From positions 293,199-357,198 of the forward strand of contig NZ_FOKL01000006.1 of NCBI RefSeq assembly GCF_900112025.1: a stretch of 64,000 nt of DNA. The letters are read 5' to 3'. The notes beneath the pieces are model-generated. The model saw only the letters and a list, made by a program, of their open reading frames with translations. It was not told the origin of the DNA and made no database searches. Origin of the DNA: Janthinobacterium sp. 344. Lineage in GTDB: Bacteria > Pseudomonadota > Gammaproteobacteria > Burkholderiales > Burkholderiaceae_D. Positions 1,990-34,755 of this stretch are shown one piece after another (position 1 is the first letter of the stretch; every line of letters starts with the position of its first letter). The position numbers and the translations under genes are program-made.

Positions 1990-3615
1990 TCATTTCCAGG
2001 CCGCGTGTATCATTTGCGCCGCTTTTTCCGCGATCATCACGGTGGGCGAGTTGGTATTGCCCGATGTAATGTAGGGCATGATGGAAGCATCGACGACGCG
2101 CAGGCCGGCCAGGCCGATCACGCGCAGCTGGCTGTCGACGACGGACAGGGGATCGCTGGCCAGGCCCATGCGGCACGTGCCCACCGGGTGAAAAATCGTC
2201 GTGCCGATCTGGCTGGCCGCCTGCGCCAGTTCTTCCTGCGTCTGAAATTGCACGCCGGGCTTGTATTCCTGCGGCGCAAACTTACTTAACGCCGGCGCGG
2301 CGGCGATGGCCCGCGTCAGGCGCAAGGCATCGGCCGCCACCTTCCGGTCCTGCTCGGTACTCAGGTAATTGGGCACGATCTTCGGCGCCGCATAACTGTC
2401 GGCGCTGGCGATCCGCACGTGGCCGCGCGAGCTGGGGCGCAGGTTGCAGACGCTGGCCGTAAACGCGGGAAACGCATGCAAGGGTTCGCCGAATTTGTCC
2501 AGGGACAAGGGTTGCACGTGGTATTGCAGGTTCGGCGTGGCTTGCTGCGGATCGGATTTCGCGAACGCCCCCAGTTGCGACGGCGCCATCGACATGGGCC
2601 CGCTCTGGAACAACGCATACTGCAAACCAATCTGCATCTTGCCGAACATGTTGCTGGCCATGATATTCAAGGTTTTCACGCCCTGCACCTTGAAGACCAT
2701 GCGCAGCTGCAGATGGTCCTGCAAATTGCCGCCCACGCCGGCCGCATCGACCACGGGCGCGATACCATGCTCCTGCAGCAAGGCGGCGGGGCCGATGCCG
2801 GACAATTGCAGCAATTGCGGCGAACCGATGGCCCCCGCCGTCAGCAAGGTTTCGCGCCGCGTCGTCGCCTGCCACTGCGTGCCGCCGCCCGTGAACACGA
2901 TGCCCGTGCAGCGCGGACCCGCTTCCGTCGTTTCCAGCAGCAGACGTTCCACGTGGCAACCCGTCATGATCGTCAGGTTCGGCCGGCGCGCCGCCGGTTT
3001 CAAGAACGCTTTCGCGGTATTCCAGCGGATGCCGCGGCGCTGGTTGACGTCGAAATACGCGCTGCCGCTATTATCTCCGCCATTGAAATCGCTGGTTTTC
3101 GGGATGCCCACCTGCTGCGCCGCGTCGCGGAACGCATTCAAAATGTCCCACGACAGGCGCTGTTTTTCCACGCGCCACTCGCCACCGACGCCATGGTTTT
3201 CCGATGCGCCGCCGTAATAATCCTCGCTTTGCTTAAACAGCGGCAGCACCTTGTCCCAGCGCCAGGAAGCGTCATCCGTCAGGTCCGCCCAGTGGTCGTA
3301 ATCGCCAGCCTGGCCGCGCATATAGATCATGCCGTTGATGGACGAGCTGCCGCCGAGCACTTTGCCGCGGGGATACATCAAGCTGCGCCCGCCCAGGCCC
3401 GCGTCCGCCTGCGTGGAATACAGCCAGTCCGTGCGGGGATTGCCGATGCAATGCAGATAACCGACGGGGATGTGGATCCACACGTAGTCGTCCTTGCCGC
3501 CCGCTTCCACGAGCAAAACGCTGGCGTCCTTGTCGCGCGTGAGCCGGTTGGCCAGTACGCAACCGGCCGTGCCACCGCCCACGATGATGTAGTCGTATTC
3601 GCCTGCCGATTCCAA
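1990..3615 (-). CDS. GMC family FAD-dependent oxidoreductase (choline/alcohol dehydrogenase type)
   Basis: The 541-residue protein has the GMC hallmarks in order: an N-terminal ADP-binding fold YDYIIVGGGTAGCVLANRLT near residue 7, the GMC signature GKVLGGSSSINGMIYMRG near 85-105, and the C-terminal catalytic HPVGTCRMG followed by VVDASIMPYITSGNTNSPT. Members oxidise alcohols (choline, long-chain, cyclic or aromatic) and pass electrons to quinone or a cytochrome. I cannot assign the substrate. The start chosen is a TTG preceded by AAAGGAG at 5 bases spacing. There is no signal peptide. It lies upstream of livG in the same direction with a 133-base gap. On its 5' side is the origin-like repeat array, so it has no obvious operon partner. 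Confidence 0.9.
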   Translation of the reverse strand: MESAGEYDYIIVGGGTAGCVLANRLTRDKDASVLLVEAGGKDDYVWIHIPVGYLHCIGNPRTDWLYSTQADAGLGGRSLMYPRGKVLGGSSSINGMIYMRGQAGDYDHWADLTDDASWRWDKVLPLFKQSEDYYGGASENHGVGGEWRVEKQRLSWDILNAFRDAAQQVGIPKTSDFNGGDNSGSAYFDVNQRRGIRWNTAKAFLKPAARRPNLTIMTGCHVERLLLETTEAGPRCTGIVFTGGGTQWQATTRRETLLTAGAIGSPQLLQLSGIGPAALLQEHGIAPVVDAAGVGGNLQDHLQLRMVFKVQGVKTLNIMASNMFGKMQIGLQYALFQSGPMSMAPSQLGAFAKSDPQQATPNLQYHVQPLSLDKFGEPLHAFPAFTASVCNLRPSSRGHVRIASADSYAAPKIVPNYLSTEQDRKVAADALRLTRAIAAAPALSKFAPQEYKPGVQFQTQEELAQAASQIGTTIFHPVGTCRMGLASDPLSVVDSQLRVIGLAGLRVVDASIMPYITSGNTNSPTVMIAEKAAQMIHAAWK

Positions 3616-3827: not shown

Positions 3828-4304
3828 TGTGGATAACCGTATGGATATCCACAGGGACGATATGTGCGTAAACGAAAATTTTTTTCAGCCGCTTTTTTTT
3901 GTCCAGAAACCATCCCAGACAGATACAACGCTTACTCAGCGCTTATCCGTACGCCAAGCGATTGTTTACAAGGATAAATCAGGACTTATCCACAGAAGAT
4001 GACACCGTTAACTACTATTACTATTCTTGTATACGATCTTGTTAAGGTAAACCCGACAACACGCGCTTTGCCTGCGCTTCGCCGACGAACAGGTTCACAA
4101 GCCTGACTTCAAAAAAAAAGCCGACAAGCTGCTTTGACGGCCCAAAAAAAACGCGCCAACAACTGAGCAGCGAAAACCGGCGCGGCCGGCGTCATGCAGA
4201 CAGCACTGCCAAACCGTTTTGCAAAATAGAAATGTCAACGGCCCTTGCCAGGCGCTGAGCCGGCAAGCCGCATGAGGTCGAAATCAGGGGAAGTTGGAGA
4301 CGAT
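3828..4304 (+). repeat. Origin-like repeat, unit 1
   Basis: Order of elements: TGTGGATAA at 3828-3836, near-box ATATCCACA at 3845-3853, near-box TGTGCGTAA at 3863-3871, conserved GATACAACGCTTA near 3922, weak box TTATCCGTA at 3943, and perfect TTATCCACA at 3986-3994. After a 16-base spacer comes ACTACTATTACTATT at 4011-4025, then TTGTATACGATC. The 3' part contains AAACCGTTTTGCAA near 4212, which recurs in unit 3. It has fewer downstream AT bases than units 2 and 3. Confidence 0.75.
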
Positions 4305-4766
4305 TGTGGATAAGTCACTTGATATCCACAGGATGAATTGTGCGTAAACACGCAGTTATGCGCAGCCGCGTATTTTATACAAGTTTGCTCCTCGCGTGAT
4401 ACAGCGATTATGCACGCTTTATTTTGTGCGTAAACGATTGATCCTGTTGAAAAAAGACGACTTATCCACAGAAAAAAACGCGTTTACTATTACTACTATT
4501 TTTATATATAGATCTATTGTAAACCGACAAAAAAAGCGGAAGTCCGGGGATATTTCCCAAAAGCAGGCAAAAACCGTCAAAAAAAAAAGTCAACGGCGAC
4601 AGCGCGACCATGCCAAACCGTCTTCCAGGAATCAACTCGATGCCAATCTGCAGGAAAGAGCTGCGCTCGTGATCGCTCAGCTGCGATTGCCAAGCAGGGA
4701 GTCATGCATGCAGACCACGTCAAACATGTCACTGCAGCAAGAAAAAACGCGATTTATGCAGAGCAG
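4305..4766 (+). repeat. Origin-like repeat, unit 2 (best preserved unwinding module)
   Basis: Perfect TGTGGATAA at 4305-4313 is followed by near-boxes ATATCCACA 4322-4330, TGTGCGTAA 4339-4347, TTATGCGCA 4356, TTATGCACG 4408 and TGTGCGTAA 4425-4433. A perfect TTATCCACA lies at 4462-4470. After 15 bases ACTATTACTACTATT occupies 4486-4500 and runs into TTTATATATAGATC. On the complementary strand this reads 3'-GAT-AAT-GAT-GAT, the DnaA-trio pattern. A 154-codon open frame crosses this unit (4396-4860) but has no coding character. Confidence 0.8.
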
Positions 4767-5073
4767 TGTGGATAAGTGCCTGCATATCCACAGGATGAGA
4801 TGTGGGAAAAGTCGATCTTTGTCCACAAGCCAATTTTTATCCCAAACAAGTCCTCCGTAGATACAATGCTTGTGCGCCTACTTTTTTGTGCGCTAAGTTG
4901 ATGATTTTTAGACGGTATACCGACTTATCCACAAAAAAATGGCCGTTTACTATCACTACTATTTTTATGTATACATCTTTATTTAAAACACAGAGACAAA
5001 CGCGCACGGTGGAAAAGTCGCCGGAACGGCTGTTTTCACCCTGTAAACCGTTTTGCAATACAAAAAACCTGTA
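4767..5073 (+). repeat. Origin-like repeat, unit 3
   Basis: TGTGGATAA 4767-4775, ATATCCACA 4784-4792, TTGTCCACA 4819-4827, conserved GATACAATGCTTG near 4861, perfect TTATCCACA 4925-4933, a 15-base spacer, then ACTATCACTACTATT 4949-4963 (one trio interrupted) and TTTTATGTATACATC. AAACCGTTTTGCAA near 5046 closes the unit just before mtnN. The unit is shorter than the others because mtnN begins at 5082. Confidence 0.75.
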
Positions 5074-5081
5074 AAAACAGC

Positions 5082-5858
5082 ATGAATTCACCCAAAAAAA
5101 TGCGTTTAGGTATCATCAGTGCCTTGCACGAAGAACAGCAGGGGCTGGTAGAAGCCATGCAAGGCCCCCAGAGGCGTTCGCACGGCATGCGTGACTACAC
5201 CCTGGGAACCCTGTGGAATATCGACGCTGTGTGCGTTCTGTCGCGTCTGGGCAAGGTTGCCGCTGCCATGACAGCTTCTATCCTTGTGGAAAAGTACGGA
5301 GTTACCCACATCGTCTTCACCGGCGTGGCCGGCAGCGGGGATAAACGCGTGAAAGTCGGCGATATCGTGGTGGCGGAAGCGCTGCTGCAGCACGACATGG
5401 ATGCCCGCCCTTTGTTTCCCCGCTTTGAAGTGCCGCTGACGGGTCTGCAGCGCTTTGCCACGGACCTGGAACTGAGCACGCAGCTGGGAGCCGCCGCGGA
5501 AGATTTCCTGCGTGACGACGCTGCCAGCGTGCTGCAGGCGGCCGATATCGCGCAATTCGGCTTGCAACATGCCACAGTACACCGCGGCCTGATCGCCAGC
5601 GGCGACCAGTTCATCGGCAGCGCGGCGCATATCAACCAGCTGAAAGCGGATATCCCGGACCTGCTGGCCGTCGAAATGGAAGGCGCCGCCGTGGCGCAAG
5701 TGTGTTTTGAACTCGGCGTGCCGTTTACGGTCATGCGCACCATTTCCGACAACGCCAACGAAGAGGCGGCCGTCGACTTCATGCGTTTCGTGCAAACCGT
5801 CGCCTCGCCGTACGCGTTTGCCGTGATCCGGCAGCTGTGCCGGCGCCTGGCTGGCTGA
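5082..5858 (+). CDS. mtnN: 5'-methylthioadenosine/S-adenosylhomocysteine nucleosidase
   Basis: The 258-residue protein cleaves the glycosidic bond of MTA and SAH, releasing adenine and feeding methionine salvage and SAM-product recycling. The fold signature MRLGIISALHEEQQ carries the catalytic base equivalent to E. coli Glu12 (here Glu18). GVAGS at 81-85, VEMEGAAVAQV with Glu200 (substrate ribose binding) and TISDNANEE with Asp223 (adenine protonation) complete the active site. It is slightly longer than E. coli MtnN (232 aa). The start is uncertain: ATG 5082 has no good ribosome site, and ATG 5100 (MRLGII) is also possible. It begins immediately after origin-like repeat unit 3 and ends before a bidirectional terminator. 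Confidence 0.9.
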   Translation: MNSPKKMRLGIISALHEEQQGLVEAMQGPQRRSHGMRDYTLGTLWNIDAVCVLSRLGKVAAAMTASILVEKYGVTHIVFTGVAGSGDKRVKVGDIVVAEALLQHDMDARPLFPRFEVPLTGLQRFATDLELSTQLGAAAEDFLRDDAASVLQAADIAQFGLQHATVHRGLIASGDQFIGSAAHINQLKADIPDLLAVEMEGAAVAQVCFELGVPFTVMRTISDNANEEAAVDFMRFVQTVASPYAFAVIRQLCRRLAG

Positions 5859-16862: not shown

Positions 16863-18239
16863 ATGAACGTTGTCATTCTCGCCGCCGGTATGGGGAAACG
16901 CATGCAGTCGGCACTGCCAAAAGTCTTGCACCCGCTGGCTGGCAAGCCGCTGCTGTCGCATGTGATCGATACGGCGCGCAGTCTGGCGCCGTCCCGATTA
17001 TGCGTGATTTACGGGCATGGGGGCGCCGCGGTGCTGAAGTTGCTCGACGGCTACAAGATGAATCAGGCGCTGGCCATCGATGCCGCTGAGCAAGCGCAGC
17101 AGCTGGGCACGGGCCATGCGGTGCAGCAAGCCGTGTCCTTGCTGGACGAGTCGGTGCCGACCCTGATCCTGTACGGCGACGTGCCGCTGACCAGCGCCGC
17201 CTCGCTGCAGCAACTGGTGCAGGCGGCCGGCAACGACAAGCTGGCCATTTTGACCGTGGAACAGGATGATCCGTTCGGCCTGGGCCGCATCGTGCGCGAA
17301 CAGGGCGCCATCGTGCGCATCGTCGAGGAAAAGGATGCCACGCCAGACGAGCGCGCCATCAAGGAGATCAACAGCGGCATCATGGTCGCGCCCACCGTGC
17401 AGCTGAAGCAATGGCTGTCGTCTCTGTCGAACAATAATGCCCAAGGGGAATACTATCTGACCGATATCGTGGCCCAGGCCGTCGCCGACGGGGTGCCCGT
17501 CACCTCCGCGCAGCCCGCTGCCGTGTGGGAAGTGGCGGGCGTCAACAGCAAGGTGCAACTGGCCCAGCTGGAGCGCATCCACCAGAACAATATCGCGCAA
17601 GCCTTGCTGGAACGGGGCGTGACCCTGCTCGATCCGGCGCGCATCGACGTGCGCGGCGAACTCATTTGCGGCCGCGATGTCACCATCGACGTGGGCTGCG
17701 TCTTCGAAGGCCGGGTGGAATTGGGCGACGGCGTGCGCGTGGGCGCCAACAATGTGTTCATCAATGCCACGGTGGCGGCCGGCGCGCACATCAAGCCGTT
17801 CTGCCATATCGAAGACGCCGTCGTCGGCGCCGCCTCCATCATCGGCCCGTACGCGCGCTTGCGCCCCGGTACCGTGCTGGCGGAAGACGTGCACATCGGT
17901 AACTTCGTGGAAGTGAAAAACAGCCAGATCGCCGCGCACAGCAAGGCCAATCACCTGGCGTACATCGGCGACGCCACCATCGGCTCGAAGGTCAACATCG
18001 GCGCCGGCACCATCACCTGCAACTACGATGGCGTGAATAAATTCCGTACCGTCATCGAAGACGATGCCTTCATTGGCAGCGACAGCCAGCTGATCGCCCC
18101 TGTCACCGTCGGCAAGGGCGCCACCCTGGGCGCCGGCACCACCCTGTCGAAAGATGCGCCGGCGGGCAAGCTGACGGTGTCGCGCGCGCGCCAAGTCACC
18201 ATTGACGGCTGGACGCGTCCCGTGAAAATTCCCAAGTAA
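16863..18239 (+). CDS. glmU: Bifunctional UDP-N-acetylglucosamine pyrophosphorylase / glucosamine-1-phosphate N-acetyltransferase
   Basis: This 458-residue enzyme makes UDP-GlcNAc for peptidoglycan and LPS. The N-terminal uridylyltransferase shows [20 protein letters not shown] and LYGDVPLT. The C-terminal left-handed beta-helix shows repeating hexapeptides ([38 protein letters not shown]). Length and motifs are normal. No clear ribosome site precedes the ATG, but the lipoprotein-glmU gap is AT-rich. It ends in a strong terminator; glmS follows 1.3 kb later, separated by a DnaA-box cluster and an Lrp-type gene. Confidence 0.97.
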
Positions 18240-18304: not shown

Positions 18305-18862
18305 TGTGGGTAATCCTGTGGAAAGATGGCTGGCAACTCGGGATAACTGGCACATGTTTTTACAGCGCTCTTTGCCTATGCTTTTTCAAGTGTGGATAAA
18401 CCTGTGTGCAAGCATGCTGAAAAGTCATGGATAAGCCCGGTATAAGTGACGTATAAGCAGTGGAAAAGGCGGGATAAGTGGAATTGTTTGTCGTCAATTT
18501 TCACCATGGCGATGGGATGATGCATGCTTGAAAGTGCGGCCTGAATTTTGGCTCATCGAGATGTGGATAAGCCTGTGCGCAATCTGCGGATAATCGATGG
18601 ATAACTTTTAAGTCCTTGTATCCAAAGGAAATATAGGGGGAATTGCAAAGGCCATATTGTGGGTAACACTGTGCAAAAGCCTGTTGCTAACTGGTGGGCA
18701 AGCTGAGGATAAGCCGGGATAACTTTCCTGTGCTTAGGCAGACTCATTTATCAACTGCAATCATGTCGCAGCAGATATCTGCCATGTGGGAATCCGTGGT
18801 TGTTAAGCTGTGGACAACAATGTGCATAAGCCGGCTGAAAGGCAGGGATAAGTCGGGATAAC
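18305..18862. repeat. Gene-free cluster of degenerate DnaA-box-like units
   Basis: The 640 bases between glmU and the Lrp-type gene hold no gene. They contain eleven GGATAA motifs, all in one orientation. Three are part of exact DnaA consensus boxes (TGTGNATAA): 18391-18399, 18562-18570 and 18821-18829. Near-boxes TGTGGGTAA lie at 18305 and 18658, and TGTGGACAA at 18809. Five imperfect units can be aligned, each reading roughly TGTGGATAA-n-CCTGTGnGCAA and then one or more GGGATAAG/C. No DnaA-trio run or strong AT-rich stretch is present, unlike 3.8-5.1 kb. DnaA binding or titration is inferred. Confidence 0.65.
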
Positions 18863-34243: not shown

Positions 34244-34755
34244 TGGCGATCCCGAACAGCAAGCAGGAACTGCTCGAGGCGATGACCACCACGTACGCGA
34301 AACTGGCGCAGGAGCTGGCGCGCGTGCCGCCGGCCTTGGCGCGCGAACCCGTGCTGGAGGGGCAAGTGAAAGGCACGCGCATGAGCGTGTGCGATCTGCT
34401 CGCCTACCTGGTGGGCTGGAACGAGCTGGTCTTGCACTGGCACGCGCAGCTGCGTGACGGCAAACGCATCGAGGACATCGCCTTTCCCGCCGAAGGTTTC
34501 ACGTGGAACGCTCTGGGGAAACTGGCGCAGCGCTTCTATGCCGACTATGCTGAACTGAGCATGGCAGACTTGCAGCAGCGCCTGGCGCTGGCGAAAGACC
34601 AGTTGCTGGCGCTGGTCGACGCGCACGACGACGCGCAATTGTATGGCCGGCCCTGGTACACGCATTACACGATGGGACGCATGATCCAGTTCAATACGGC
34701 GTCGCCGTATGCGAATGCGCGCTTGCGCTTGCGGGCCTGGCGCAAGACCTTGTAG
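34243..34755 (+). CDS. ClbS/DfsB family four-helix protein
   Basis: The 170-residue protein (MAIPNSKQELLEAMTTTYAK, TRMSVCDLLAYLVGWNELV, FTWNALGKLAQRFYADY, RPWYTHYTMGRMIQFNTASP) has the DinB-like helical pattern of the ClbS/DfsB family. ClbS is the colibactin self-protection hydrolase, but most family members have no known role. Its start overlaps the stop of the ArsR-rhodanese gene, so it is probably under the same 38-bp operator. Confidence 0.8.
   Translation: MAIPNSKQELLEAMTTTYAKLAQELARVPPALAREPVLEGQVKGTRMSVCDLLAYLVGWNELVLHWHAQLRDGKRIEDIAFPAEGFTWNALGKLAQRFYADYAELSMADLQQRLALAKDQLLALVDAHDDAQLYGRPWYTHYTMGRMIQFNTASPYANARLRLRAWRKTL

Follow-up and report, generated by a model that had tools for sequence, protein, structure and literature searches.

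A tandem array of three compact DnaA-box and DnaA-trio units as the very probable chromosome origin of Janthinobacterium, far from dnaA

The question raised by this locus is whether three direct repeats of DnaA boxes, DnaA-trios and AT-rich DNA that lie away from dnaA represent the chromosome origin of Janthinobacterium sp. 344 and, if so, how many of them would open. The analyzed stretch of 64,000 nucleotides (hereafter, the window) corresponds to positions 293199-357198 of contig C8, in a genome of 6.44 Mb distributed in 27 contigs. Three tandem units of approximately 240 bp are located within window positions 3828-4995, between a GMC oxidoreductase gene and an mtnN-like gene that starts about 95 bp past unit 3 and whose product shared 91-95% identity with its 13 nearest records, every one labelled Janthinobacterium. 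Within each unit, an inverted box TGTGGATAA is followed after 8 bp by ATATCCACA, by about 130 bp containing weaker boxes, by the forward box TTATCCACA and by an unwinding part composed of a spacer of 11-12 bp, the motif GTTWAC with DnaA-trios, and AT-rich DNA. IHF-like sites were scored against WATCAANNNNTTR, which we take to be the IHF consensus. The features are listed below, in window coordinates unless a contig is given.

1990-3615, minus strand: GMC oxidoreductase gene (Pfam)
3828..4060, plus strand: predicted origin unit 1, with inverted box pair, IHF-like site, DnaA box, spacer, trios and AT-rich DNA
3828..3836, minus strand: inverted DnaA box TGTGGATAA of unit 1, 158 bp ahead of its forward box
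3845..3853, plus strand: unit 1 second box ATATCCACA, 8 bp past the inverted box
3955..3967, minus strand: unit 1 IHF-like site, 1 mismatch to WATCAANNNNTTR, offset -31
3986..3994, plus strand: unit 1 forward DnaA box TTATCCACA
4007..4052, plus strand: unit 1 DnaA-trios and AT-rich unwinding DNA (putative)
4305..4530, plus strand: predicted origin unit 2
4305..4313, minus strand: inverted DnaA box of unit 2, 157 bp ahead of its forward box
4322..4330, plus strand: unit 2 second box ATATCCACA
4431..4443, minus strand: unit 2 IHF-like site, 1 mismatch, offset -31
4462..4470, plus strand: unit 2 forward DnaA box TTATCCACA
4482..4524, plus strand: unit 2 DnaA-trios and AT-rich DNA, including the 40-bp segment of lowest stability in the window
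4767..4995, plus strand: predicted origin unit 3
4767..4775, minus strand: inverted DnaA box of unit 3, 158 bp ahead of its forward box
4784..4792, plus strand: unit 3 second box ATATCCACA
4894..4906, minus strand: unit 3 IHF-like site, 1 mismatch, offset -31
4925..4933, plus strand: unit 3 forward DnaA box TTATCCACA
4945..4987, plus strand: unit 3 DnaA-trios and AT-rich DNA
5082-5858, plus strand: mtnN-like gene (PNP_UDP_1; Pfam)
16863: glmU (named from the sequence)
19515: glmS (named from the sequence)
34496..34509, strand not given: parS site (centromere-like)
C8:285069-290804, just left of the window: four further parS sites
C8:280628-281170: parB

The repeats that an earlier note had described were all located as claimed, with TGTGGATAA at 3828, 4305 and 4767 (periods of 477 and 462 bases), ATATCCACA 8 bp past it in all three units, and TTATCCACA at 3986, 4462 and 4925, followed 15-16 bases further by ACT/ATT runs. 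The neighbours named there, GMC oxidoreductase and mtnN, agreed with Pfam, glmU and glmS were found at 16863 and 19515, and the genome has its sole DnaA-family match on a contig other than C8. The IHF-like site of each unit, the fixed interval of 157-158 bp between its end boxes, the parS site at 34496 and the spread of the array in the family go beyond that description. Perfect DnaA boxes amounted to eight in the window (0.11 expected; 100 shuffles, maximum 1), and six of them fall inside the 1.1 kb array. When duplex stability was compared among non-overlapping 40-bp segments of the whole window, the trios of unit 2 were the least stable, while unit 3 ranked 4th and unit 1, the most melt-resistant of the three, ranked 11th, in keeping with the proposal that the AT-rich DNA melts easily. 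The Rfam scan of the window returned no matches at gathering thresholds.

Two perfect DnaA boxes, both on the minus strand and 171 bp apart, were also observed at window positions 18391-18570, between the glmU-like gene and a gene for an Lrp-type regulator adjoining the glmS-like gene (names read from the sequence).

The position of the array on the chromosome was evaluated by means of GC skew, as the earlier note had advised. In the own contig, where skew was computed over 343 of the 436 kb of C8, the cumulative minimum corresponded to the 5-kb bin at 293-298 kb, which includes the array (297.0-298.1 kb). The complete genome of Janthinobacterium sp. LM6 is numbered from dnaA (position 1076) and carries the array at 354.9-355.9 kb; based on 40 sampled windows of 20 kb plus the contiguous stretch 280-400 kb, its skew was mostly negative from 3.6 Mb through dnaA up to the array (with exceptions at 80 kb, 120 kb and 6.2 Mb), whereas between the array and 3.4 Mb positive values prevailed (with an exception at 800 kb), so that the sign flips at the array, and the opposite flip was found between 3.4 and 3.6 Mb. 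Within the contiguous stretch, the lowest value was reached in the 4-kb bin that ends at 352 kb, some 3 kb short of the array. Results were weaker or mixed in genomes of two further genera: in G073 the curve was almost flat over approximately 250 kb around the module at 4.446 Mb, with a low point at 4.61 Mb (3.98-4.68 Mb scanned), and it kept falling well past dnaA at 4.153 Mb; in G021 the skew flipped near the module, but the signal was noisy.

Partition and terminus markers were distributed in the same way. Sites matching parS were found close to the array in all ten genomes searched (the reversed control pattern matched one site in three of the ten), with four sites at 6-12 kb and a fifth at 30 kb from it in the own genome, and the farthest, in LM6 and G233, at 37-39 kb; no parS was found near dnaA in the five genomes in which this gene is 292-362 kb from the array. 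The best-scoring parB match was 13-17 kb from the array in four out of four genomes, three of which also had weaker ParB-family matches elsewhere. A dif-like site was detected in nine of ten genomes, and that of LM6 was 10 kb off the point opposite the array versus 364 kb off the point opposite dnaA, with arms of 3.154 and 3.135 Mb measured from the array and of 3.508 and 2.780 Mb measured from dnaA. Replichore balance, computed for the six of these nine genomes of known exact length, was better from the array in five (imbalance from the array vs. from dnaA: 19 vs. 728 kb in LM6, 90 vs. 675 kb in G073, 63 vs. 187 kb in G057, 86 vs. 184 kb in G031, and a near tie of 5 vs. 9 kb in G243) and better from dnaA in G021 (443 vs. 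252 kb). In the own genome the box-trio signature occurred at the array only; the region upstream of dnaA contained one perfect box, and no trio run or AT-rich stretch was seen there by eye. An origin at dnaA was rejected, as skew, parS and the dif-like site disagree with it in LM6.

As expected for an oriC, the array lies at the skew minimum and opposite the terminus (own contig and LM6, with the mixed results of G073 and G021 noted above), it combines a cluster of DnaA boxes with adjoining easily melted DNA, and it has parS and parB close by, as is common in bacteria possessing them. Skew, parS/parB, dif and the box-trio signature agree that the array, and not dnaA, is very probably the chromosome origin, in accordance with the origin proposed in the earlier note.

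Two other clusters of DnaA boxes were observed in the own genome. The first (G000:C20:275586-276517; L084 9586-10517) comprises seven boxes on one strand, five perfect and two TTGTCCACA, spaced 136-170 bp, with a TGTG half-box after each box and three exact matches to the IHF consensus in 1.3 kb; it is flanked by genes resembling xseA and exbB/tolQ (names read from the sequence), no trios were seen in it, and it is a candidate datA- or DARS-like locus. The second (G000:C4:131370-131775; L083 9370-9775), approximately 108 kb from dnaA, consists of two paired DnaA-box clusters with an extra box a few bases off each.

The box-spacer-trio signature was widely represented in the family, which we take to be Oxalobacteraceae. 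It was found in 210 of 294 family genomes and 26 of 44 genera (counts that are lower bounds, the pattern being exact), and the reversed control pattern in none of the 294. One copy was present in 68 genomes, two in 114 and three in 28, while 84 had none; two or three copies thus occurred in 142 of the 210 signature-bearing genomes. Within the own genus, 23 of 27 genomes carried three copies and four carried two. Outside the family the signature was absent from all 145 genomes of the order (three of 150 order genomes matched, all three belonging to the own family), and box-pair spacing alone was matched in one of the 145 (G388). This sole outside-family match, at G388:C77:3876-4042, was in a genome with many copies of TGTGGATAA. 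Genera g5 and g6, with genome sizes of about 1.2-3.2 Mb, accounted for 34 of the 84 signature-less family genomes.

The surroundings of the array were conserved as well. Among 29 of 30 loci (L027 gave no module with the strict pattern), GMC oxidoreductase was detected in 19, putA in 21 and mtnN, called within 6 kb of the modules, in 12, values that are lower bounds because automatic clustering missed some genes; genes for liv-type transporters and lrp, read from the sequence, were also observed in the neighbourhood. The distance between array and dnaA, where both were on one contig, ranged from approximately 7 kb (G243), 20 kb (G036), 46 kb (G022) and 53-62 kb (G099, G057) to 292-347 kb (G073, G048, G021) and to 300-362 kb in seven of eight Janthinobacterium genomes, the eighth (G204) wrapping round the contig end. 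The array therefore keeps its neighbours while its distance to dnaA varies widely.

In order to describe the internal geometry, 124 modules were compared from 51 loci, of which 27 contained three modules, 19 two and five one. These loci came from an mtnN search or from signature-matching genomes, so the forward box and trios were preselected and the box near -157 and the site at -31 were not; at least one locus is counted twice, as L029 and L201 seem to be one genome. The box TGTGGATAA (≤1 mismatch) was located 156-159 bp before the forward box in 122 of the 124 modules. A match to the IHF consensus on the minus strand was found at exactly -31 in 110 modules with ≤1 mismatch and in all 124 with ≤2 mismatches, against no more than six modules at any other single offset on either strand and no more than two in sliding minus-strand windows from -150 to 45. 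The own genome contained a match to IHF alpha (himA) above the curated cut-off. Modules were mostly arranged in tandem; they faced outward in two Noviherbaspirillum loci (L028, L030), and inward-facing pairs were found in G005 and G020 (L198, L199).

A further motif, GATACA, which is not a DnaA box, was observed after a T-rich tract. Among 63 representative modules (the set used for GATACA and IHF counts, picked to thin near-identical Janthinobacterium) it was present in 22, without exception at offset -65 or -64, and 71 of the 124 modules contained it anywhere between -105 and -25.

Conservation within each unit was measured as mean column identity over 20 Janthinobacterium loci, namely the window and 19 others (L002-L018, L024 and L026, the more diverged L019-L023 being omitted). 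The three units were conserved in relatives at the syntenic gap, where the earlier note had advised looking. The forward box was invariant in every unit (identity 1.0), the inverted pair reached 0.97-0.98 and the middle part 0.89-0.94; the 40 bp of trios and AT-rich DNA reached 0.96, 0.98 and 0.996 in units 1, 2 and 3, the spacer 0.79, 0.90 and 0.91, and the DNA further downstream 0.73-0.83. Spacer length was nearly constant (12 bp in 18 loci or 13 bp in two for unit 1, and always 11 bp for units 2 and 3) despite 18, 8 and 9 distinct spacer sequences, respectively. The three units are separately conserved, and the activity of all three as unwinding modules is putative.

In a tree of 85 modules, chosen to thin near-identical Janthinobacterium, units 1, 2 and 3 of this genus formed separate groups, suggesting that the triplication probably predates the genus and that its units have been kept apart. 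In several other genera (G243, G031, G020 and others), modules of one genome clustered together, in agreement with repeated duplication or with homogenisation. This is a weak tree, as it is based on approximately 240 columns with support values unexamined, and its deep branches are unreliable.

The modules share features of two well-known origin types. With oriC of E. coli K-12 (NC_000913.3) they have in common the succession of R4, boxes, IHF site, R1 and unwinding DNA in the same polarity, with strong end boxes facing opposite ways and an IHF-like match adjoining the R1-like box, at -31 from it in both cases. The E. coli match is weaker (2 mismatches), and matches of this quality numbered four in 260 bp around R1 and seven in 1001 bp (both strands). 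We take the match at -31 to be the known IHF site beside R1. Since chance matches with 2 mismatches are not rare, its identity rests on the literature, where an IHF site named IBS1 is mentioned, as is the stabilisation of IHF binding by box R1 (PMC10380432, excerpt). In contrast to the modules, whose end boxes are 156-159 bp apart (157-158 bp in the window), oriC of E. coli is a single unit with R4 and R1 180 bp apart, whereas most signature-bearing genomes of the family have two or three units per origin. According to an excerpt of PMC13220808, E. coli dnaA is likewise not adjacent to oriC, and only three putative trios are present there, while the array carries clear trios of the B. subtilis type.

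The second likeness is to the basal unwinding system (BUS) of B. subtilis and many bacteria, where a DnaA box is followed by a short spacer, DnaA-trios and AT-rich DNA. Under the BUS rule, a DnaA box has three or more trios no further than 16 bp away, and the reported spacer peak is 10-13 bp (PMC8287927, excerpt); module spacers were 11-13 bp, and units 1, 2 and 3 of the window have 12, 11 and 11 bp, respectively, to GTTWAC, followed in each by trio runs. The array differs in having two or three BUS-bearing units per origin, several units not being mentioned for BUS origins in the excerpts of PMC8287927 and PMC10721633. More than one DnaA-box cluster per origin is also found in bipartite origins. 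In B. subtilis, two regions flank dnaA and strand separation occurs from one of them (PMC13220808, excerpt), whereas in the array trios and AT-rich DNA are present in each unit, and the distance to dnaA varies among genera from about 7 to 362 kb. The origin of Cupriavidus metallidurans CH34 chromosome 1 shows that a location away from dnaA is not new in the order, as its skew transition is approximately 90 kb from dnaA, beside a stretch of 213 nt that contains three perfect DnaA boxes (PMC2864759, excerpt); no trio units are described in that excerpt, and the signature was absent from the 145 outside-family genomes, a set that may or may not include Cupriavidus. For Herbaspirillum seropedicae the origin was assigned to dnaA from skew and gene position (PMC3093359, excerpt), and in Herminiimonas arsenitoxidans two skew transitions mark oriC and terminus (PMC5670224, excerpt). 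No description of this multi-unit origin was found among titles and abstract openings of the open-licence literature, subscription journals and DoriC being outside this scope. Bipartite organization is exemplified by the origin of Helicobacter pylori.

Readings in which the array is not the chromosome origin were weighed against these data. Its many strong DnaA boxes, its IHF-like sites and its distance from dnaA would also suit a DnaA-titrating or recycling site (datA- or DARS-like), with the true origin at dnaA; this is very unlikely, since in Janthinobacterium the skew minimum, parS, parB and the dif-like site point to the array, and the own dnaA, with its single perfect upstream box, has no signature nearby. 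Moreover, such sites would lack an unwinding element, whereas the array includes both trios and the window's most meltable DNA, neither of which is known to be needed by datA- or DARS-like sites. A role of the boxes in controlling mtnN, unrelated to initiation, could be suggested by the closeness of the gene start to unit 3 (~95 bp), yet it leaves trios, melting and skew unexplained and is extremely improbable; it was rejected, as modules persist in genera where automatic clustering placed no mtnN nearby (gene present within 6 kb in 12 of 29 loci, a lower bound). Repeated arrays of DnaA boxes are frequent in plasmid origins, but the neighbourhood of GMC oxidoreductase, modules and putA conserved across many genera makes it scarcely credible that the array is a mobile element or plasmid origin inserted into the chromosome. 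Taken as a whole, the data argue strongly for a real, family-wide and repeated oriC, and we consider it highly likely that the locus is the Janthinobacterium oriC, built of three tandem, separately conserved compact units that would join an E. coli-like layout with B. subtilis-type trios.

How many units open is less clear-cut. A single unit (for instance unit 2 or 3) could be the one that opens, with the rest acting as DnaA-loading helpers, the role presumed for oriC1 of B. subtilis, where strand separation proceeds from one site only (PMC13220808, excerpt). The greater resistance of unit 1 to melting and the five of 51 loci with a single module under the pattern used are consistent with this arrangement, to which we give somewhat less than an even chance. 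It is weakened in its pure form because a helper would have no need of trios, and the trios and AT-rich DNA of all three units are nearly as conserved as the boxes (0.96-0.996), against 0.73-0.83 for the flanking DNA further on. Alternatively, all of the two or three complete oriC units, each selected independently, could be opened, together or in turn, as a multi-orisome; this is put forward tentatively, as a reading that we consider less likely than not. Starting from the observed position, conservation, geometry and melting propensity of the units, DnaA would nucleate at the strong boxes on both ends of a unit, IHF would bend the DNA between them, and DnaA would then extend from the R1-like box over the fixed spacer of 11-12 bp onto the trios, so that the AT-rich stretch may open and allow helicase loading. 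A multi-unit origin would offer repeated opportunities for opening, or would open at more than one site in an initiation round; redundancy, multiple opened sites, or one active unit assisted by the others are candidate reasons for their maintenance.

The reading of the array as the chromosome origin corrects the origin position, as in the LM6 record, which starts at dnaA, approximately 354 kb from the array. By combining the E. coli IHF-to-R1 offset with B. subtilis trios in one piece of DNA, the units would join the two best-studied models of bacterial origins. Model bacterial origins have one opening site; if the multi-orisome were true, initiation in these bacteria would not be a single-site event, with for example one unit per helicase or fork, and the varied orientation of units would imply that direction is determined once opening has occurred rather than by unit polarity. 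The loading of two helicases for bidirectional replication has been named as a step not understood (PMC10721633, excerpt), and the occurrence in this family of one, two or three units, in tandem, outward-facing or inward-facing arrangement, may offer natural experiments on how it is accomplished.
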